Below, piece by piece: positions 1,060 through 10,538 of a DNA stretch of 10,538 nucleotides (the first letter of the stretch is position 1; each line of letters begins with the position of its first letter). The stretch spans positions 1 to 10,538 of the forward strand of contig CAJZFF010000031.1 of NCBI GenBank assembly GCA_915069725.1, read 5' to 3'. Source of the stretch: an uncultured Actinomyces sp. (GTDB lineage: Bacteria > Actinomycetota > Actinomycetes > Actinomycetales > Actinomycetaceae). A program made the position numbers and the translations under genes. The notes below the pieces were generated by a model. It saw only the letters and a program-made list of their open reading frames with translations, was not told the DNA's origin and did no database searches.

Positions 1060-2073
1060 TCAGTCGATGGGGGCCGCGGCGGTCGAGTCGCGCACGATGA
1101 GGTCAGGGGCGAAGAGCATCTCGGTGTCGGCCGGCCGCTGCCCGTTGAGCTGCGCCAGAAGCGTGGAGACGGCCGCCCGGCAGATGGACTCCACGGGCTG
1201 ACGCACCGTGGTCAGCGGCGGGTCCGTCATGGGGATGAGCGGCGAGTCGTCATAGCCGATGACGGAGACGTCATGAGGCACGGACCTGCCCGTCTGGCGC
1301 ACCCCGTGGACCACCCCCAGGGCCATGACGTCTGAGGAGCACACGATGCCGGTGCATCCCTGCTCCAGCAGGTGCAGTGCTGCGCTGACCCCGCCCTCGT
1401 AGGTGTAGAGCGTCTCCACGATCCGCAGCGGCTCCTCGGGCAGACCCTCGCTCATGGCGTCCTCGTAGCCGGAGCGCTTGCGCTGAGCCGGCACCATGCG
1501 CATCGGCCCCATGGCCAGGCCGATGCGCTGGTGACCCAGGGCGATGAGGTGATCCACCGCGATACGGGTCGCCCGGCGGTCATCGGTGGCGAAGCCCGGT
1601 GCCTTGATGGTCGGCGCGTTGCCGTTAATCGTCACCAGTGGTACGCCGCGCTCACGCAGGCGCTGGTAGCGGGTCACGTCACCGGTGGTGTCCGCGTGGC
1701 GTCCGGAGACGAAGATGATGCCGGCGACACCGCGGTCCACGAGCATCTCGATGTACTCGTCCTCGCTGATACCGCCGGGGGTCTGGGTACACAGCAGGGG
1801 AGTGTGCCCGGAGGGTGCCAGGAGCTGTTCGATCTGCTGGGCGAACAGCGGAAAGATCGGGTTGCTCAGCTCGGGCACGATCAGCCCCATGAGACCGCGG
1901 GAGGTCTGGTGCACCGATTCGGGCCGCTCGTAGCCCAGGATGTCGAGCGCAGCGAGTACCTGCCGACGGGTCGAGTCAGCCACGTTGGACTTTCCATTGA
2001 GCACACGGGAGACAGTCGCGGTGGAGACGCCCGCCTGGTCGGCGATGTCAGTGAGAGTGAGTCTCTGTGGCAT
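1060..2073 (-). CDS. malR: LacI/GalR-family transcriptional repressor, probable MalR
   Basis: The 337-aa protein has a typical LacI layout. The N-terminal helix-turn-helix (residues 6-25, LTDIADQAGVSTATVSRVL) carries the recognition helix STATVSRVL. A linker follows, then a periplasmic-binding-protein-like effector domain starting near GLMGLIVPEL (60-69), with VDHLIALGHQRIGLAMGP (173-190), SSDVMALG (246-253) and VIGYDDSPL (271-279). The start ATG (2071-2073) has AGGA eight bases upstream. The linker YERPESVHQTSRG is about three residues shorter than in E. coli LacI and lacks the Leu that wedges into the minor groove there. From memory, the GYERP linker and CTQTPGG segment resemble the actinobacterial maltose-regulator subgroup. 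It is the last gene of the malE-malF-malG-malR row, 196 bp after malG and in the same direction. It presumably represses the locus until a maltose-derived effector binds. The LacI family is certain; the maltose role rests on context. Confidence 0.9.
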   Translation of the reverse strand: MPQRLTLTDIADQAGVSTATVSRVLNGKSNVADSTRRQVLAALDILGYERPESVHQTSRGLMGLIVPELSNPIFPLFAQQIEQLLAPSGHTPLLCTQTPGGISEDEYIEMLVDRGVAGIIFVSGRHADTTGDVTRYQRLRERGVPLVTINGNAPTIKAPGFATDDRRATRIAVDHLIALGHQRIGLAMGPMRMVPAQRKRSGYEDAMSEGLPEEPLRIVETLYTYEGGVSAALHLLEQGCTGIVCSSDVMALGVVHGVRQTGRSVPHDVSVIGYDDSPLIPMTDPPLTTVRQPVESICRAAVSTLLAQLNGQRPADTEMLFAPDLIVRDSTAAAPID

Positions 2074-2269: not shown

Positions 2270-3199
2270 TCAGCCCTTGACCGCACCCGAGATCGATCCG
2301 CCGACGATATAGCGCTGCAGGTACTGGAACAGAGCGATCACCGGGGCCATGGTAAGGACCGCCCCGGCGGCGAAGATGCCCAGGTTGTTGGAGCGGTCGC
2401 CGACGAGCATGCCGTAGAGCCCCACTGCGAGCGTCTTCTGGGAGTTGTCGGTCAGAATGATCGAGCCCAGGAGGAACTCGCTGATGACACCCACGAAGGC
2501 CAGCAGGAAGGTGGTGGCGATGATCGGCTTGAGCGTGGGCAGAAGGATGATGCGGAAGACCTGCCAGTGCGTGCAGCCGTCGATGATGGCGGCTTCATCG
2601 AGCTCGCGGGGAATCGTGTCGAAGGTTCCCTTGATGAGCCACACCTGCCCCAGTGCTCCGCCCATGAGCGCCAGGCTGTAGCCGGCCAGGGTGTTGAGGC
2701 CGAGGAAGGGGACGACCTGGCCGATGTCGGAGATCATCGTGTAGATGGCGATCATGGACAGGATCGCGGGGAACATCATAATGAGGAGCAGGGCGAGCAG
2801 GCCGCCGCGGCGTCCGGTGAAGCGGAACCGGGAGAAGGCGTAGGCCCCCAGCAGGGACAGGAAGACCTGAGCGGTTGCCACCACTGTGCAGATGATGATC
2901 GTGTTGAGGTACCAGCGCAGGAATGGGCCTCGCGCCCCCGACAGCAGGTTCTGGTAGTTGACCAGACTCACCTTGGTGGGGATCAACCCGGTGGATGCCA
3001 CCGTGCCCAGGGGGTTGAGAGAGGCGGAGATGACGTAGAGGACGGGGAAGGCTGCGAAGACCAGGGCGATGACGCCGACGACGTGTCTCCAGCCGATCTC
3101 CCGGAACCAGCGTGAGAACGGCATGTGATTCTCGATGACGACATTGTCCTCGGAACTGTTTGATGCGGACCGGGACACGGGCTGCGATGAGGTGCTCAT
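2270..3199 (-). CDS. malG: Maltose/maltodextrin ABC transporter permease MalG
   Basis: This 309-aa inner subunit of the maltose importer is close to E. coli MalG (296 aa). Six hydrophobic segments are visible, at about residues 39-60, 97-121, 133-155, 168-186, 220-244 and 274-296. The cytoplasmic EAA coupling loop, which docks on the ATPase, is ELDEAAIIDGCTHWQVF (199-215), with the conserved Glu-Ala-Ala and Gly. The C-terminus QRYIVGGSISGAVKG is typical of MalG-type permeases. The N-terminal 38 residues are a polar, Ser-rich cytoplasmic tail. The ATG (3197-3199) is preceded by GGAAAG with nine-base spacing. The gene starts 27 bp after malF ends, so the two are almost surely cotranscribed. Together with MalF it forms the transmembrane channel. 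Exact sugar length preference (maltose versus longer maltodextrins) cannot be read from the sequence. Confidence 0.93.
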   Translation of the reverse strand: MSTSSQPVSRSASNSSEDNVVIENHMPFSRWFREIGWRHVVGVIALVFAAFPVLYVISASLNPLGTVASTGLIPTKVSLVNYQNLLSGARGPFLRWYLNTIIICTVVATAQVFLSLLGAYAFSRFRFTGRRGGLLALLLIMMFPAILSMIAIYTMISDIGQVVPFLGLNTLAGYSLALMGGALGQVWLIKGTFDTIPRELDEAAIIDGCTHWQVFRIILLPTLKPIIATTFLLAFVGVISEFLLGSIILTDNSQKTLAVGLYGMLVGDRSNNLGIFAAGAVLTMAPVIALFQYLQRYIVGGSISGAVKG

Positions 3200-3226: not shown

Positions 3227-4801
3227 TCAGTTGACGTCTTCGAGCTTCTTGGTGGCTCGGAACTGCAAGGCGGCCAGGACGCCGGTGACGGCGAACAGGA
3301 CCACGGAGACGGCAGAGGCGAATCCGAAGTCCGAGCCGGCACGGCCGAAGGCGATGCGGTAGACCATGGAGATGAGGATGTCGGTTCCGCCACGCGTGTA
3401 CTCCCCAGCCGGGAAGGGCCCACCCTCGGTCAGCAGCTGGATGGCATTGAAGTTGTTGAAGTTGAAGGCGAAGGTGCTCACCAGCAGAGGGGCGACGGCG
3501 ACCAGGAGCAACGGGGTGACGATGCGCCATGTGGCCTGCATACCACTGGCGCCGTCCATCTTGGCCGCCTCCTTGACATCGCCGGAGATGGACTGCAGAG
3601 CGCCGGTGCACACGATGAACATGTAGGGGAAGCCCATCCACGTGTTGGTCAGCAGGACGGCGATCTTGGCCATGGTCGGGTCGGACAGCCACGGGATACT
3701 GAGGTGCATCATCCGGTTGATGAGGCCGAAGTCCTGGTTGTAGAAGTTCGACCACACGAGCAGCGAGATGAAGCCGGGTACGGCGTAGGGCAGCAGGAGG
3801 AAGGAGCGGTAGAGCTTCTTACCCTTGATGCGATCATCGTTGAGGGTCAGCGCCAGGAAGAAACCGAGGCCGAAGGTGAGCAGCACCGAGCCCAGGGCGA
3901 AGATGATGGTCCATGCGAAGGCCTTGAGGAACTGGGAGGCCAGGTTCCCCTCAGTGAAGAGCCGTGAGTAGTTGGCCAGTCCCACGTTCTGCTTCCAGGA
4001 CTGGGCCAGGCTCTCTCCCTCGGCGTTGACGAAGTGCTCGGACAGTCCCACCTTCTTGACCGAGTAGACGTCCCCGGTGGCGGTGTTGGTGATGGTGTCG
4101 GAGGACTTGTTGTAGACCATCCGCTTGGTTCCCTCGAAAGCGGTTCTGACGCCCTGAACCTTGACCGTGGTCTTGTCCGTGAAGGGAACCGACATGGCGC
4201 TGATGTCCTCGTAGGCGGTGTTGATCTGCCTGGGGGACAGGATCGTGTATCCCTCCGCTTTGGTGACCACGCCGTCGTCGACGGTCACGGTGCTGGCGTC
4301 GACCTTCTCCAGCTTCTTCCCGTCACTTCCCCGCAGCACCTCCTTGGTCTGCGGATTGACGAGGAACAGTGAGAAGGGGCCCTTGGTGACGTCGCCGTCG
4401 GTCGCGACTGACAGACCATAGGTGGGAGAGTCCTCCGTACGGACCATGGAGTTGTTGGTGATTGAGGCGATGGCTTCCTCCTTGGTCCCGCGGTACCCGT
4501 CCCCGAAGTTGGTGAAGGAGGTTTGAATGGTCAGCGCGATGGGGACGATGAGGAAGACGGTGAGGAAGAACGTGCCTGGGAAGAGGTACTTGGCGGGCAC
4601 GAATCTCTTGGTCGAGTACAGCAGGAACATGGCCCCCGTGGTCAGGACGACGATTCCCAGCCACAACCACATCCGATAGGCGATAAGAAGTGGGACGAGG
4701 TAGATCGCTGCGACCAGCGTGAGGGACAGCACCATGATGCGACCGACGAGACCTCTGATGGTCGTGGTCTTCTCCCTCGGGGTGGTGGATGCGGACGTCA
4801 T
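3227..4801 (-). CDS. malF: Maltose/maltodextrin ABC transporter permease MalF
   Basis: The 524-aa protein has the MalF topology. Three hydrophobic segments at the N-terminus (about 22-42, 44-62, 73-93) are followed by a large external loop (about 94-290), the P2-type domain that contacts the binding protein in E. coli MalF (514 aa), and then five more hydrophobic segments (about 294-318, 331-352, 378-398, 427-447, 492-514). The EAA loop is DVKEAAKMDGASGMQATWRI (408-427). FNNFNAIQLLTEGGP (448-462) is a recognisable permease signature. The external loop is rich in Thr, Val, Asp and Lys, and its sequence is much less family-like than the membrane part. The start ATG (4799-4801) has GGAAAGGA ten bases upstream; that site lies in a possible hairpin (4814-4832). 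It pairs with MalG and would need an unlinked ATPase. The assignment to the MalF group is strong because of the long loop. Confidence 0.93.
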   Translation of the reverse strand: MTSASTTPREKTTTIRGLVGRIMVLSLTLVAAIYLVPLLIAYRMWLWLGIVVLTTGAMFLLYSTKRFVPAKYLFPGTFFLTVFLIVPIALTIQTSFTNFGDGYRGTKEEAIASITNNSMVRTEDSPTYGLSVATDGDVTKGPFSLFLVNPQTKEVLRGSDGKKLEKVDASTVTVDDGVVTKAEGYTILSPRQINTAYEDISAMSVPFTDKTTVKVQGVRTAFEGTKRMVYNKSSDTITNTATGDVYSVKKVGLSEHFVNAEGESLAQSWKQNVGLANYSRLFTEGNLASQFLKAFAWTIIFALGSVLLTFGLGFFLALTLNDDRIKGKKLYRSFLLLPYAVPGFISLLVWSNFYNQDFGLINRMMHLSIPWLSDPTMAKIAVLLTNTWMGFPYMFIVCTGALQSISGDVKEAAKMDGASGMQATWRIVTPLLLVAVAPLLVSTFAFNFNNFNAIQLLTEGGPFPAGEYTRGGTDILISMVYRIAFGRAGSDFGFASAVSVVLFAVTGVLAALQFRATKKLEDVN

Positions 4802-4890: not shown

Positions 4891-6177
4891 TTACGAGCCC
4901 TTGATCGACGCCTTGATGGTCTGGCCGACCCCGGTCATGGTGCTGGCGGGATCAGCACCCCCGACGATGTTGGCCTGAGCGCGTCCAAGGGGTTCCCACA
5001 CTGAGGACATGGCGGGAATCGCGGGCATGGGGTCCGCCTTGGCGGAGAGCTCCGCGAAGGTGACCATGTCGGGGTGCTCCGCCTTGAGCTTGTCCGCGAG
5101 GTCCTTCTGGGCCGGAGGCAGCTCGTTGCTGGGGAACATCGAAGACGCGAATGTCATATCCTTGGCCGCGTCGGCCACGAAGGTCTCGGCGAAGGCCTTG
5201 TTCTTCCCGTTGGAGGCGACATAGAAGCAGTTGACCCCGACGAAAGGCTTCGCCTGGCTGTTCTTGATGTCTTTGAATCCCGGAATCCGAGTGAGCTGGT
5301 AGTCGATACCGGCCTTCTTGATGTCCGCCAGGGCCCATGGCCCCGAGATGAGGTAGGGAGCCTTGCCATCGGTGAACAAGGAAATGTGGTTGGCGGTCGT
5401 GACTGACTTCCTGAGGACTCCCTGCTGGCCGAGCTGGCGGATCTTCTCCGCAGCCTTGATGGATCCCTCTTTGCCGATACCGAGGTCATTGGGATCGTAG
5501 GAGCCGTCCGGGTTCTTGCCGAACATGTAGCCGCCGGCGGCGGTGTAGATCGGCTCCATGCTGTAGGCGTCGCCCTTCTCGTCGATGGCCTGCGACAGGA
5601 CGAGCTCGGTTCCGGCCGCCTTGCCGGCCTCGATCATCTCCTCGATGCTGGCCGGCTGGATCACTGAGGTCAGTGCCTTGTTGACGAACAGGCCCAGGCA
5701 CTCGACGGCGTAGGGCGTTGCGTAGATCTGGCCGTCGTAGGTGACGGCCTTGAGCGCGATGTCGGAGTAGTTGGACTCGGCCTCAGGGCTTAGAACGACC
5801 GGCCGGATCGCGCTGTTCTGCACCAGGTTGCCGATCCAGTCGTGTGCGCCGAGGACGATGTCGGGGCCGTTGCCGGCCTGGTTGGCGGTGATGAAGTTGG
5901 GCTGCAAGTCATTGGCGACGGTCTGGACCGCCACCGAGATGCCCTGCTGCTCGCCCCAGGTCTTGGCGATCTCCTTGAGGGAGTCCGCCTTCTTCTGATC
6001 CGCCCAGATGACCAGGTCGGCATCGGAGTCGCCTGCCGAGGCGTCAGACGCCTGTGAGGCAGCGCCGCCCGAGGCCGCCGTACCCGCAGCATTGCGCGAG
6101 CCGGAGCAGGCGGCCAACGTTGGCACGGTGGAGGCCAGAGCGGCCATCGTCAGGAAGGATCGGCGGGTGGGTGCCAC
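4891..6177 (-). CDS. malE: Maltose/maltodextrin-binding lipoprotein MalE with Tat-type signal
   Basis: This extracytoplasmic solute-binding protein of the maltose importer has 428 aa from the chosen GTG start (6175-6177). That start has an ideal AAGGAG (6185-6190) seven bases upstream; an in-frame ATG at 6231 would add 18 residues, has no such site, and lies at about the predicted transcription start. The N-terminus APTRRSFLTMAALASTVPT carries twin arginines (R5, R6) in a TRRSFL context, a hydrophobic core, and the lipobox LAAC with Cys24 as the acylated residue, so export by Tat and anchoring to the membrane are likely. A flexible Ala/Ser/Gly/Asp linker (25-53) leads into the binding domain, which begins LVIWADQKKADSLKEI. 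Family features include GNGPDIVLGAHDW (102-114), YATPYAVECLGLFVNK (152-167), SGPWALADIKKAG (278-290) and VGVNCFYVAS (313-322). It lies 89 bp before malF. Sugar specificity is inferred from homology and neighbours. Confidence 0.92.
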   Translation of the reverse strand: MAPTRRSFLTMAALASTVPTLAACSGSRNAAGTAASGGAASQASDASAGDSDADLVIWADQKKADSLKEIAKTWGEQQGISVAVQTVANDLQPNFITANQAGNGPDIVLGAHDWIGNLVQNSAIRPVVLSPEAESNYSDIALKAVTYDGQIYATPYAVECLGLFVNKALTSVIQPASIEEMIEAGKAAGTELVLSQAIDEKGDAYSMEPIYTAAGGYMFGKNPDGSYDPNDLGIGKEGSIKAAEKIRQLGQQGVLRKSVTTANHISLFTDGKAPYLISGPWALADIKKAGIDYQLTRIPGFKDIKNSQAKPFVGVNCFYVASNGKNKAFAETFVADAAKDMTFASSMFPSNELPPAQKDLADKLKAEHPDMVTFAELSAKADPMPAIPAMSSVWEPLGRAQANIVGGADPASTMTGVGQTIKASIKGS

Positions 6178-6231: not shown

Positions 6232-6260
6232 AATTTAATCGGCTTATGCAAAGATTACAA
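6232..6260 (-). promoter_or_regulatory. malE promoter (sigma70-type)
   Basis: On the minus strand TTGTAA (6260-6255) and TAAATT (6237-6232) are separated by exactly 17 bases, each matching four of six consensus positions. The surroundings are strikingly AT-rich for this genome. The predicted start near 6225 gives a leader of about 48 nt that contains the palindrome and the ribosome binding site. This would make malE-malF-malG independent of the upstream GH13-like gene. Confidence 0.6.
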
Positions 6261-6280: not shown

Positions 6281-6300
6281 CCGTGTGCCCTAGGCAACGG
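6281..6300 (-). terminator. Hairpin at the stop codon of the GH13-like gene
   Basis: CCGT plus TGCC pair with GGCA plus ACGG to make eight base pairs with one bulged base and a three-base loop that includes two bases of the TAG stop codon. It lies immediately upstream of the malE promoter, where a terminator would insulate malE from the upstream gene. There is no strong U-tract; the sequence after the stem on the transcript is ATGCAAGTTTC. Confidence 0.35.
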
Positions 6301-7516
6301 TTGTGGCCTCCAGCCACGTCGTCGTCGCCGGGGGTACGAGTGGACGCCCCTCCTCCTGGCGCAGGGGCTGGGAGGATAGGAGAACCTTGGCCTCGGCCGG
6401 CAAGGTGACGGGGGAGTCGGAGGTGTTGACGACGACCAGGACGCCACGCACCAGGAAGGAGAGGGCCTGGGGCGGGCACCACTCCAGCCCGGTGACGAAG
6501 GCCAGGGGAGCGCAGGCCAGGTTGTACTCGTGCCGAACGTGGGCCGCGTGGCGCACGGTCGCAGTCGGAGAGCCGAACTGAGAGGACTGCACCTGCGTGT
6601 GCTCAGCCACCATGTCGGCCAGCTCCAGGGGAGCGGTCGGCTTGTCGGAGTCGGACAGGGCGATCTCATCGCCCTGACGTAGGTAGAGCGAGCCGGGCAG
6701 GGCCAGCATCATGGCCTGCAGGGCGAGCCCTCGACGCAGCCGTTCCTCGTGGTCGACGGAGTACCAGCGCTGCCCGTCGCCCGGATCCAGGTGCTCGGAG
6801 AGAATGTGGGGAGGCAGGAATCGCCAGGTGGGGGGTGCCCCGAAGCGGTCGTGCTCGTCCAGCGACCGGGTCAGGTGGGACGTGAGCGACTCGGCGTTCC
6901 ACCGTGTCAGTGTCAGGCAGTCGTCGCGCAAGTGGTGCACCCAGTCGTCCTGGAGGTGATGACGCAGTGACTCCGGGTAGTCGGCGGTCACGTCGGCACC
7001 GATGATGCCCTCGTCGACGTACTCGGCCAACTGGCCGTGCAGCATGGCGCAGTAGGTGCTGAGTCGATCCAGCCGGATTCCGCTGGTGAGCTGGGGAGGC
7101 ACGATCGTGCCCAGGTCGATGCCGGCCGCACCGGCTTGCAGGTAGGCCTCCGAACGGCGTAGCAGGTCGTCAGCGGCGCCTTCGAGGCCGGTGACGAAGC
7201 CGGTGGTCTGCTTGGCGTAGGGTCCTGTGATCGGACCCAGCGCACCGGAGATGCGCACGATGGTGCGCAGCCCCTGCTCCCCGGCCTCGTCGATGAAGCG
7301 GCGGATCGAGTCCATCTCGGTGTCGATGTCGAGCAGGCTCGGACGGATGAGTACCGCGTCCATGCCCAGGTAGCGGGCGTGCTTGATGATGGGATCGGTG
7401 CGGTCCAGCTCGGCTGCTCCCAGGGCAGGTGAGGGGATCTCGTAGACCAGTGCGTGGCGCCACCACTCTTCCGGACCGTCGTAGGGCCGGTGAACGAGGG
7501 TTGTGGTGGTGGTCAC
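6290..7516 (-). CDS. GH13-fold protein of the maltose locus, predicted catalytically inactive
   Basis: The 408-aa cytosolic protein begins at GTG (7514-7516), behind GGAAGGGAG. It keeps fold markers of GH13 alpha-glucosidases: EEWWRHALVYEI (16-27; family WWxxAVIYQI), YLGMDAVLIRPS (49-60), and LRRGLALQAMMLALPGSLYLRQGDEIAL (260-287, marker end QGDEIAL for QGEELGL). The catalytic regions have decayed. Region I DxVxNH is RISGAL (87-92). The nucleophile motif GFRxD is GIDLG (132-136) with Gly136 for Asp. The acid/base motif GE is GADV with Ala174. The NHD motif is PPH with His237 for Asp. Family enzymes are usually about 550 aa, so it is also shorter, with little room for domain B. No signal peptide is visible. 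A sugar-binding, scaffolding or regulatory role is possible but unproven. The ORF is intact over 400 codons, which argues against simple decay. Fold assignment is good; inactivity is by-eye alignment. Confidence 0.8.
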   Translation of the reverse strand: MTTTTTLVHRPYDGPEEWWRHALVYEIPSPALGAAELDRTDPIIKHARYLGMDAVLIRPSLLDIDTEMDSIRRFIDEAGEQGLRTIVRISGALGPITGPYAKQTTGFVTGLEGAADDLLRRSEAYLQAGAAGIDLGTIVPPQLTSGIRLDRLSTYCAMLHGQLAEYVDEGIIGADVTADYPESLRHHLQDDWVHHLRDDCLTLTRWNAESLTSHLTRSLDEHDRFGAPPTWRFLPPHILSEHLDPGDGQRWYSVDHEERLRRGLALQAMMLALPGSLYLRQGDEIALSDSDKPTAPLELADMVAEHTQVQSSQFGSPTATVRHAAHVRHEYNLACAPLAFVTGLEWCPPQALSFLVRGVLVVVNTSDSPVTLPAEAKVLLSSQPLRQEEGRPLVPPATTTWLEATTVA

Positions 7517-7670: not shown

Positions 7671-7702
7671 ATGGTGACGACCATGGTAACCCGCTTCTGC
7701 GC

Positions 7703-7714
7703 TACCTTGTGACT
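7703..7714 (+). promoter_or_regulatory. dgt -10 box, probable leaderless start
   Basis: TACCTT (7703-7708) lies exactly six bases before the ATG at 7715. This spacing puts the transcription start on the A of the start codon. No Shine-Dalgarno sequence is seen upstream, and no convincing -35 box was found. Leaderless mRNAs are common in actinobacteria. Confidence 0.55.
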
Positions 7715-9034
7715 ATGTCAGCGCAGAAATCTGGATCCGAACCTGTGCGTATCGACGGACGAGACGCCCTTGACCTGTCCGGGTACCGGGTGCAGGACGT
7801 GGAGCGCTTCGTTCACGAGCAGGCGAAGAACCCTCAGCGCACCCCTTTTGAACGCGACCGGGCTCGGGTCCTGCACTCCTCGGCGCTGCGGCGTCTGGGG
7901 GCCAAGACCCAGGTGCTGGGGCCTGCCGCTGACGACTTCGTGCGCACCCGGCTCACCCACTCCCTGGAAGTGGCGCAGGTGGGGCGCGCCCTGGGACAGG
8001 CGCTGGGATGCGACCCCGACGTCGTCGACACCGCCTGCCTGTCCCATGACCTGGGCCATCCTCCCTACGGGCACAACGGTGAGAAGGCGCTCGACGTCGT
8101 GGCCCGCCAGATCGGGGGCTTCGAGGGTAATGCCCAGACCTTCCGGATCCTCACTCGGCTGGAGCCCAAGACCCTTGACGCAGCCGGGCGGCCGGTCGGC
8201 GTCAATCTGACGCGGGCCAGTCTCGACGCCGTCGCCAAGTACCCGTGGCTCAAGGGGAGGGGGCCGGGTGGACCGAGCGGGCGCAGTGCGCGCAAGTACT
8301 CCGCCTACGACGACGACGCCGAGATCTTCGCCTGGATGCGTCAGGGGGCTCCGGAGGGCAGGCGCTGCATCGAGGCGCAGATCATGGACCTGTCCGACGA
8401 CGTCGGCTACTCCGTCCACGACGTCGAGGACGCGATCGCCCTGGGGCGCCTGGACCCGGCCTGCCTGACCGACCCCAAGGAGGTCGATGAGCTGCTCGAG
8501 GCCACGCGGGCCTGGTACGGCACTGACCTGAGCGCCGACGCCCTCGGAGCGGCTTTCGAGAGGTTGTCCGACCAGCCCTACTGGATCCGCTCCTACAACG
8601 GCTCGGTGGCCGACGCAGCGCACCTGAAGAACCTCACCAGCGAGATCATCGGACGCTTCGTCTCCGCGGTCGCCTCCGCCAGCCGCCAGACCTACGGCGA
8701 CGGGCCACTGACTCGCTACGAGGCCGAGCTCGTCATCCCCGAGGAGACGGCCGCGGAGATCCTCCTGCTCAAGGGCATTGCCGTGCGCTACGTCATGGAG
8801 CCGCGGGAGCACGAGCCGGTCTACCTGCGCCAGCGCACCCTCATCTTCGACCTCGCCGACGTCCTCATGACCGGCGGCGGGAAGGGCATCGACCCGGTTC
8901 TGCTCGATGTCTGGCACCGGGCCGAGAACGACGATGCGCGCCTGCGGGTGGTGGTCGACCAGATCGCCTCCCTGACGGACACCTCCGCGCGGGCCTGGCA
9001 CGCCCGGCTGTGCGGCATGTTCTCCGAGGTCTAG
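7715..9034 (+). CDS. dgt: Deoxyguanosinetriphosphate triphosphohydrolase-like protein (dGTPase)
   Basis: The 439-aa HD-superfamily enzyme hydrolyses dNTPs, dGTP in the best-known cases, to deoxynucleoside and triphosphate, and so affects dNTP pools. The metal-binding HD set is visible: H82 in RLTHSLEVAQVG, H111-D112 in SHDLGHPPYGHNGE (110-123, the family hallmark), and D225 or D229 in MDLSDDVGYSVHDVEDA. Residues 46-69 (ERDRARVLHSSALRRLGAKTQV, marker end TQV) match the conserved N-terminal region, and DQIASLTDTSA (415-425) the C-terminal motif. The ATG at 7715 was chosen because similarity begins soon after it and a -10 box lies six bases before; an upstream in-frame start at 7583 would run through intergenic repeats. 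A Gly/Ser/Arg stretch (181-193) looks like a loop. dgt followed by dnaG is a common actinobacterial pair; here they are 69 bp apart with a separate promoter candidate for dnaG. Confidence 0.94.
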   Translation: MSAQKSGSEPVRIDGRDALDLSGYRVQDVERFVHEQAKNPQRTPFERDRARVLHSSALRRLGAKTQVLGPAADDFVRTRLTHSLEVAQVGRALGQALGCDPDVVDTACLSHDLGHPPYGHNGEKALDVVARQIGGFEGNAQTFRILTRLEPKTLDAAGRPVGVNLTRASLDAVAKYPWLKGRGPGGPSGRSARKYSAYDDDAEIFAWMRQGAPEGRRCIEAQIMDLSDDVGYSVHDVEDAIALGRLDPACLTDPKEVDELLEATRAWYGTDLSADALGAAFERLSDQPYWIRSYNGSVADAAHLKNLTSEIIGRFVSAVASASRQTYGDGPLTRYEAELVIPEETAAEILLLKGIAVRYVMEPREHEPVYLRQRTLIFDLADVLMTGGGKGIDPVLLDVWHRAENDDARLRVVVDQIASLTDTSARAWHARLCGMFSEV

Positions 9035-9103: not shown

Positions 9104-10538
9104 GTGGCGGGACTGATCAGGCGTGAGGACATCGAGGCGGTGCGCGAGCGCGCCAGGCTTGAGGACGTCGTCGGCGAGCACGTGACCCTCAAGAGCGCCG
9201 GCGTCGGCTCGCTCAAGGGGCTGTGCCCCTTCCACGACGAACGCACCCCCTCCTTCCACGTCCGCCCCCAGCTCGGTTACTGGCACTGCTTCGGCTGCGG
9301 TGAGGGCGGTGACGTCATCACCTTCATCGAGAAGATCCACCACCTCGGATTCGCCGAGGCCGTCGAGTACCTCGCCGACCGCACCGGGGTCCAGCTGCGC
9401 TACGAGGAGGGCGGTGCGGTACGGCGCGGGGTCGAGCCGGGCACTCGGCAGCGCCTCATGGACGCCAACCGCCTGGCCGAGGCCTGGTTCCGCGAGCAGC
9501 TCGCCACCCCGGAGGCACAGCCGGGGCGGGACTTCCTCACGTCCCGGGGCTTCGACCGCCATGCCGCCGCACACTTCGGCGTCGGCTATGCGCCCGCCGG
9601 ATGGGACAACCTCGCCCGCTACCTGCGCGGCTCCGGCTACACCGAGGCCGAGCTGGTCGACTCCGGCCTGTGCAGCCGGGGCGGGCAGGACGGGCGCCGC
9701 GTCTACGACCGCTTCCGCGGCCGCCTCATCTGGCCCATCCGGGACGTCACCGGAGCCACCGTCGGCTTCGGGGCGCGCAAGCTCTTGGAGGAGGACCAGG
9801 GCCCCAAGTACCTCAACACCCCCGAGACCCCCGTCTTCCACAAGAGCCAGGTCCTCTACGGGCTGGACCTGGCCAAGCGGGAGGTCGCCCGCTCCCACCG
9901 GATCGTCGTCGTCGAGGGCTACACCGACGTCATGGCCGCCCACCTGTCCGGGGTGACCACGGCCGTGGCCACGTGCGGGACCGCCTTCGGTGCGGACCAT
10001 GTGCGGGTCGTGCGCCGCCTGCTGGGGGATGTGGACGACCCTGCGGCGGGAGTGGTCACCGGTCAGGGGCGCGAGGCCCGTGGCGGCGAGGTCATCTTCA
10101 CCTTCGATGGTGACGCGGCCGGCCAGAAGGCCGCGCTGCGCGCCTACGCCGAGGACCAGCGCTTCGCCACCCAGACCTTCGTCGCCGTCGACCCCGGCGG
10201 CCTGGACCCCTGCGACCTGCGCATGAAGGAGGGGGATTCGGGCATCCCGCGCCTGCTGTCCAGGCGGGTGCCGCTGTTCGAGTTCGTGATCCGCACCTCC
10301 CTGTCCCACCTGGACCTGGACACCTCCGAGGGTCGGGTCCGGGGCCTGCGCTCGGCGGCGCCGGTGGTGGCCGGCATCCGGGACCGGGCGCTCAAGCGCG
10401 AGTACACCCGACGGCTCGCCGGATGGCTGGGACTACCCGATGCTGAGGTCCACGCGGCAGTCCAGGCCGCAGGGAGGCGAGGGGCACAGCCCAGCGCTGC
10501 GCGGGGCGGTCAGTGGCCCACCGACGAGACCGCCGGCC
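9104..10538 (+). CDS. dnaG: DNA primase DnaG (3' end outside window)
   Basis: The primase makes RNA primers for chromosome replication on the lagging strand. The visible 478 residues start at GTG 9104 with [17 protein letters not shown]. The CHC2 zinc domain has Zn ligands C41, H44, C62 and C65 ([13 protein letters not shown], then [13 protein letters not shown]). The catalytic core continues with DFLTSRGF (143-150), [21 protein letters not shown] (204-214) and [16 protein letters not shown] (233-248). The Toprim domain shows [13 protein letters not shown] (268-280, Glu271) and [13 protein letters not shown] (332-344, Asp335 and Asp337), followed by GGLDPCDLR (365-373). A Gly/Asp-rich stretch of about 20 residues (308-328) sits between RVVRRLL and the DGD motif. 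Pro/Ala/Gly-rich sequence follows at the right edge. The helicase-binding C-terminal domain is not in view. The reading frame is open to base 10538. Confidence 0.95.

Follow-up and report, generated by a model that had tools for sequence, protein, structure and literature searches.

Most known pseudoenzymes with a GH13 fold are heavy chains of animal transporters. The ectodomain of 4F2hc/CD98hc (SLC3A2, GH13_34) is described as a GH13 fold with neither domain B nor a catalytic site, and that of rBAT (GH13_35) as retaining domain B and the catalytic triad, in the account given in PMC8537225. GH13_30 alpha-glucosidases, e.g., CmmB (PDB 8yie) and an AglA-like enzyme of A. oris (L106:9093-10871), consist of a barrel and a C-terminal beta domain. 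Here, we analysed a stretch of 10,538 nucleotides from an uncultured Actinomyces sp. (contig CAJZFF010000031.1, hereafter the window), which encodes a protein with this architecture that we name PSG. With a probability of about two thirds, PSG is a pseudoenzyme of the cytosol with a single origin in GH13_30, a rebuilt binding pocket and a housekeeping role, its expression being tied to dgt and dnaG.

6290..7516, reverse strand: PSG, 408 residues, GTG start, GH13_30-derived pseudoenzyme.

We located the catalytic positions with two alignments, one between hidden Markov models (HMM-HMM) against an active alpha-glucosidase from an A. oris genome, the other a joint alignment of 84 PSG relatives with 22 active enzymes. 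Near-identical A. oris strains are among the 84 rows, of which 49 are less than 62% identical to one another. The two alignments concur on the acid/base, transition-state, region I Asp and catalytic Arg positions. At the nucleophile, the Gly136 proposed by an earlier sequence-only reading stands in the joint alignment (Gly in 72 of 84 rows, Asp in none), whereas the HMM-HMM alignment shows a gap; neither has an Asp. His237 occupies the transition-state position, as that reading had it, and the 84 rows have His (18), Arg (16) or Tyr (8) there, never Asp. The region I residues had also been correctly described as lost: Arg88 takes the place of the Asp (Arg in 63 of 84 rows), and the His is absent. 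Asp134 replaces the region II Arg (Asp in 83 rows, Glu in one). The acid/base had been assigned to Ala174, which is off by one, since both alignments give Asp175 and Ala174 aligns with the Ala preceding the acid/base Glu of active enzymes (over the 84 rows: 28 Asp, 17 Glu, 14 Ala, 11 Ser, 14 other or gap). The spacing between regions I and II is 23-46 residues in PSG rows versus 105-113 in active enzymes; hence, domain B is missing. All 84 rows have gaps at the GYD and DGIGD loops, and the trimmed proteins have 364-415 residues, against 551-687 in active enzymes. The active GH13 set of an Asp nucleophile (strand 4), a Glu acid/base (strand 5) and a transition-state Asp (strand 7) is not present in PSG. 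The named GH13 motifs are nevertheless there, and with Asp at the nucleophile and transition-state positions in 0/84 rows the description of PSG as a catalytically dead GH13 protein held; the alignments confirm that, judged by its residues, PSG is a GH13-derived pseudoenzyme across Actinomycetaceae. A shifted nucleophile at Asp134 is disfavoured: both alignments assign this residue to the catalytic Arg position, and strand 4 of the predicted model (132-137) runs past it.

The old active site carries new residues that are themselves conserved. At positions that hold Phe, Asn and Glu in active enzymes, PSG rows have Arg197 (75/84), Asp198 (77/84) and Trp192 (75/84); His194 is common to most active enzymes too. 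In the secondary structure of the predicted model, Arg88 maps to strand 3 and Asp134 to strand 4; Trp192, His194 and the Arg197-Asp198 pair lie around strand 6. The region I Asp of active GH13 enzymes is paired with the region II Arg. Arg88 and Asp134 would be the same pair with swapped charges, and together with Trp192, His194, Arg197 and Asp198 they may line one pocket.

The reading frame, 408 codons from GTG 7516 without internal stops, remains open upstream as far as ATG 7684. However, 24 aligned relatives all begin at a TTTTTLVHR-like block, so that GTG 7516, preceded by GGAAGGGAG, is the likely start. The protein is 98% identical to its counterpart in A. oris CCUG 34288 (L001), which makes A. 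oris the most likely source of the window. We saw neither a signal peptide nor a membrane helix (19-residue Kyte-Doolittle maximum 1.21; N-terminal maximum 0.32), and PSG is best seen as cytosolic. Its only Pfam match is a sub-threshold DUF3459, a search of NCBIfam returned none, and we found no paper on this protein in the open-licence literature, in agreement with the earlier remark that no described family with this role is known. Named relatives are annotated as glycosidase, alpha-glucosidase or hypothetical protein.

The predicted structure, a barrel followed by a C-terminal beta domain, has GH13_30 alpha-glucosidases (CmmB) as its best match, both by structure and, within the PDB, by sequence profile. 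Descent from GH13_30 is thus supported by the domain architecture and its nearest match. In a tree of PSG and active enzymes, from which other GH13 subfamilies were left out, a single branch parts the 84 PSG from the 22 active enzymes (support 1.0, length 1.15). For PSG, six of eight pairs have a ratio of non-synonymous to synonymous substitution rates (dN/dS) of 0.07-0.14, while the other two have 0.29 (with a dS of just 0.03) and 0.31; the range for dgt is 0.06-0.22. PSG is therefore under purifying selection, and the view that the gene is intact and maintained was upheld by both its frame and its dN/dS. Frameshifted orthologues, taken beforehand as a sign of ordinary decay, are represented by G031 (C6:61642-62863), where PSG is broken into three overlapping frames by sequencing error or decay; elsewhere the frame is retained in relatives down to about 24-35% identity with the window protein.

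PSG was matched at E ≤ 1e-70 in 118 of 213 Actinomycetaceae genomes. We inspected 30 of the 95 genomes without a match: seven hold a diverged PSG (a frame of 345-517 residues) adjoining dgt, 13 have dusB at most 217 bp from dgt, and in three Actinomyces-like genomes a LacI gene adjoins dgt instead. A search of 396 genomes of the order, which scored at most four candidates per genome and may let diverged copies escape, gave 15 full-length matches, every one in genomes of the family set; the remaining matches listed were partial, mostly within frames of at least 550 residues. In further protein searches the named matches were solely from Actinomycetaceae, many matches carrying no name. One genome also has, away from its dgt locus, a 199-residue frame resembling PSG profile positions 253-380 (G062:C1:545559-545936, E 8.7e-37), a possible second copy or fragment.

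The most constant neighbours of PSG lie upstream, on the other strand.

7683..7711, no strand assigned: conserved block between PSG and dgt, putative bidirectional promoter with two opposed -10-like hexamers.
7715..9034, forward strand: dgt, dGTP triphosphohydrolase (HD domain), divergent neighbour of PSG.
9104..10538, forward strand: dnaG, DNA primase, extending past the window edge.

We extracted PSG loci from 78 of the 118 matching genomes, 77 of them with at least 1.2 kb upstream, and a divergent dgt was found upstream of PSG in all 77. Its distance from PSG was between -400 and 600 bp in 74 loci and -932, -439 and 609 bp in the others, the two negative values arising from over-extended frames. 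In nearly all loci dnaG follows dgt; one locus has it on the opposite flank of PSG (L123), and in one none was seen (L104). Further conserved neighbours, i.e., dusB, a class II tRNA synthetase, a zinc-uptake set and a type I dehydroquinase, look like housekeeping synteny and give no functional lead. In the intergenic block, the -10-like TACCTT (7703-7708) points to dgt, 6 nt ahead of its ATG, and TACCAT (7688-7683) points to PSG, 14 bp from the opposed hexamer. The block CACAAGGTAnCGCAG...CGGGTTACnAT is kept, mostly invariant, in 6/6 aligned PSG-dgt loci, including that of A. bowdenii. Bidirectional promoters are described as widespread in bacteria (PMC12825309, PMC10268837). The block may act as one, and PSG is probably expressed together with dgt-dnaG.

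The sequence-only reading had placed PSG at the head of a maltose transport locus, whose genes lie downstream in the window.

4891..6177, reverse strand: malE-type binding protein, likely start GTG 6177.
3227..4801, reverse strand: malF-type permease (Pfam, NCBIfam).
2270..3199, reverse strand: malG-type permease (Pfam, NCBIfam).
1060..2073, reverse strand: LacI-family regulator, MalR-like by position (Pfam, NCBIfam).
6232..6260, reverse strand: putative malE promoter with a MalR-type repeat and -35/-10-like hexamers.

This membership was not sustained at the level of the family. Whereas dgt is constant (77/77), mal genes occur within 4.5 kb in just 34 of the 73 PSG loci with 4.5 kb or more of downstream sequence; they share the strand of PSG in 15 loci and run opposite to it in 19, and the other 39 loci have none in that stretch. 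Hence, of the two traits for which conservation among orthologues had been suggested, the nucleophile and transition-state losses are general (84/84) and the mal linkage is not. The putative malE promoter comprises the repeat TTGTAATCTTTGCA (6260-6247), TTGTAA (6260-6255), a 17 bp spacer and TAAATT (6237-6232). A ribosome site, GATTCGAAGGAGAATC, is conserved in most PSG-malE loci compared and fits GTG 6177, so that malE probably starts there rather than at ATG 6231, freeing space for the promoter; the 54 bp between the two candidate starts overlap the putative -10 region. In S. lividans, the MalR core site CTTGCAG occurs ahead of malE as both direct and inverted repeats (PMC5526262). With at most one mismatch, TTGCA-N4-TTGCA repeats occur between PSG and malE in 17/20 Actinomyces loci (0.003 in shuffles; none in L075, L077 and L085) and upstream of PSG in 0/20. 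The operator match in the window alone is weak (one mismatch; 22/200 shuffles match) and counts because the repeat recurs in relatives. The stretch upstream of PSG thus has none of the repeats expected of the first gene of a MalR-controlled operon, although PSG transcripts may read through into malE.

We searched for MalF in a biased set of 49 PSG-bearing genomes (39 without nearby mal genes, nine more and A. oris). The window MalF had no match at E ≤ 1e-30 in 23 of them, with candidates incompletely scored in G105, G154, G047, G010 and G190; in 13 it lay on the PSG contig, roughly 6-24 kb away. A PF00128 search of the same 49 genomes found GH13 in 48 and none in G213. Some Actinomyces loci show mal genes in other states: malE and malF are fragmentary beside an intact PSG and a kept LacI regulator in L004, and malEFG is gone between an intact PSG and lacI in L006 and L069. 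In two loci (L053:9582-12023 and L092:8568-10331) a second, convergent GH13 gene (AglA-like, about 445-450 bits) lies between PSG and malG. A glycerate kinase-like gene occupies positions 1-1017 of the window (forward strand), with a homologue beyond lacI in most mapped Actinomyces loci.

We propose a single origin of PSG from a GH13_30 alpha-glucosidase, within Actinomycetaceae and at the site between dusB and dgt. The family as a whole has lost the nucleophile, the transition-state Asp, the catalytic Arg, domain B and the two active-site loops, and new charged residues are conserved at the former active site. The rebuilt pocket would cleave no sugar and instead bind a partner or a small ligand, binding of one or the other being its most likely activity. 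A shared bidirectional promoter would couple its expression to dgt-dnaG, and therefore suggest a housekeeping role rather than one in maltose use. Several observations weigh against this proposal. Asp or Glu is retained at the acid/base position in 45/84 rows, and position 88 is not Arg in 21/84. In 95/213 genomes PSG found no match at E ≤ 1e-70, which implies that it is dispensable in the family, and in G031 it is split over frames. The mal genes within 4.5 kb in 34/73 loci come in two arrangements, and MalF on the PSG contig in 13 genomes makes likely an old link to mal genes that later loosened; PSG may thus descend from a mal-locus glucosidase.

The mal genes within 4.5 kb also speak for PSG as a maltodextrin sensor, an accessory of MalEFG or a partner of the active alpha-glucosidase, with dgt as merely old synteny. 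In A. oris, malEFG-lacI follows PSG on the same strand, and PSG has the fold of an enzyme for short alpha-glucans. Yet, we consider this explanation unlikely: MalF gives no match in 23/49 PSG-bearing genomes and GH13 none in one, PSG stays intact where malE and malF are fragmentary or gone, MalR-type repeats are confined to its downstream side, and it has no membrane helix or signal. A sensor or transporter accessory, as the sequence-only reading had envisaged, is therefore not supported as a family-wide role; in Actinomyces alone, PSG may have a maltodextrin role. The conservation of D134, H194, R197 and D198 on the old active-site strands, beyond what a scaffold needs, could alternatively reflect an enzyme turned to new chemistry in its rebuilt pocket. 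This is doubtful, given that we recognised no known active-site motif and that these residues could instead stabilise the fold or form an interface with another protein. That PSG is simply a decaying alpha-glucosidase gene is very improbable. The unmatched genomes and the split G031 copy would fit decay, but dN/dS is as low as that of dgt, which refutes decay for the Actinomyces members tested, the frame is kept in distant relatives, and the new residues are conserved. Beyond the housekeeping pseudoenzyme that we favour, a more speculative extension would make PSG a new cytosolic sensor or enzyme, with a charge-swapped barrel, the strand 6 Arg-Asp and one symmetric promoter with dgt-dnaG, that links dNTP pools or replication to a ligand derived from sugar or of nucleotide type; this variant is improbable. 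The presence of dgt and dnaG as neighbours, instead of maltose genes, points to a different job for PSG, and this head-to-head linkage is a place to look for it.

PSG shares its barrel and C-terminal beta domain with GH13_30 alpha-glucosidases, but unlike them it lacks domain B, the GYD and DGIGD loops, the nucleophile, the transition-state Asp and the catalytic Arg. The label of glycosidase or alpha-glucosidase therefore misleads, since the cutting residues are lost. After GH13_30, the next structural match of the PSG model is the 4F2hc/CD98hc ectodomain, which likewise has no domain B and no catalytic triad; rBAT differs from PSG in having both. The PSG profile is nonetheless closer to GH13_30 than to 4F2hc, and the losses in the two proteins look convergent. 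4F2hc is anchored in the membrane and serves amino acid transporters as their extracellular heavy chain, whereas PSG is bacterial, has no membrane helix, and is not a member of the 4F2hc-like heavy-chain group. If our reading is true, PSG would be a bacterial counterpart of the animal GH13 heavy chains that arose independently, has likewise lost domain B, and occurs in a tractable oral commensal.
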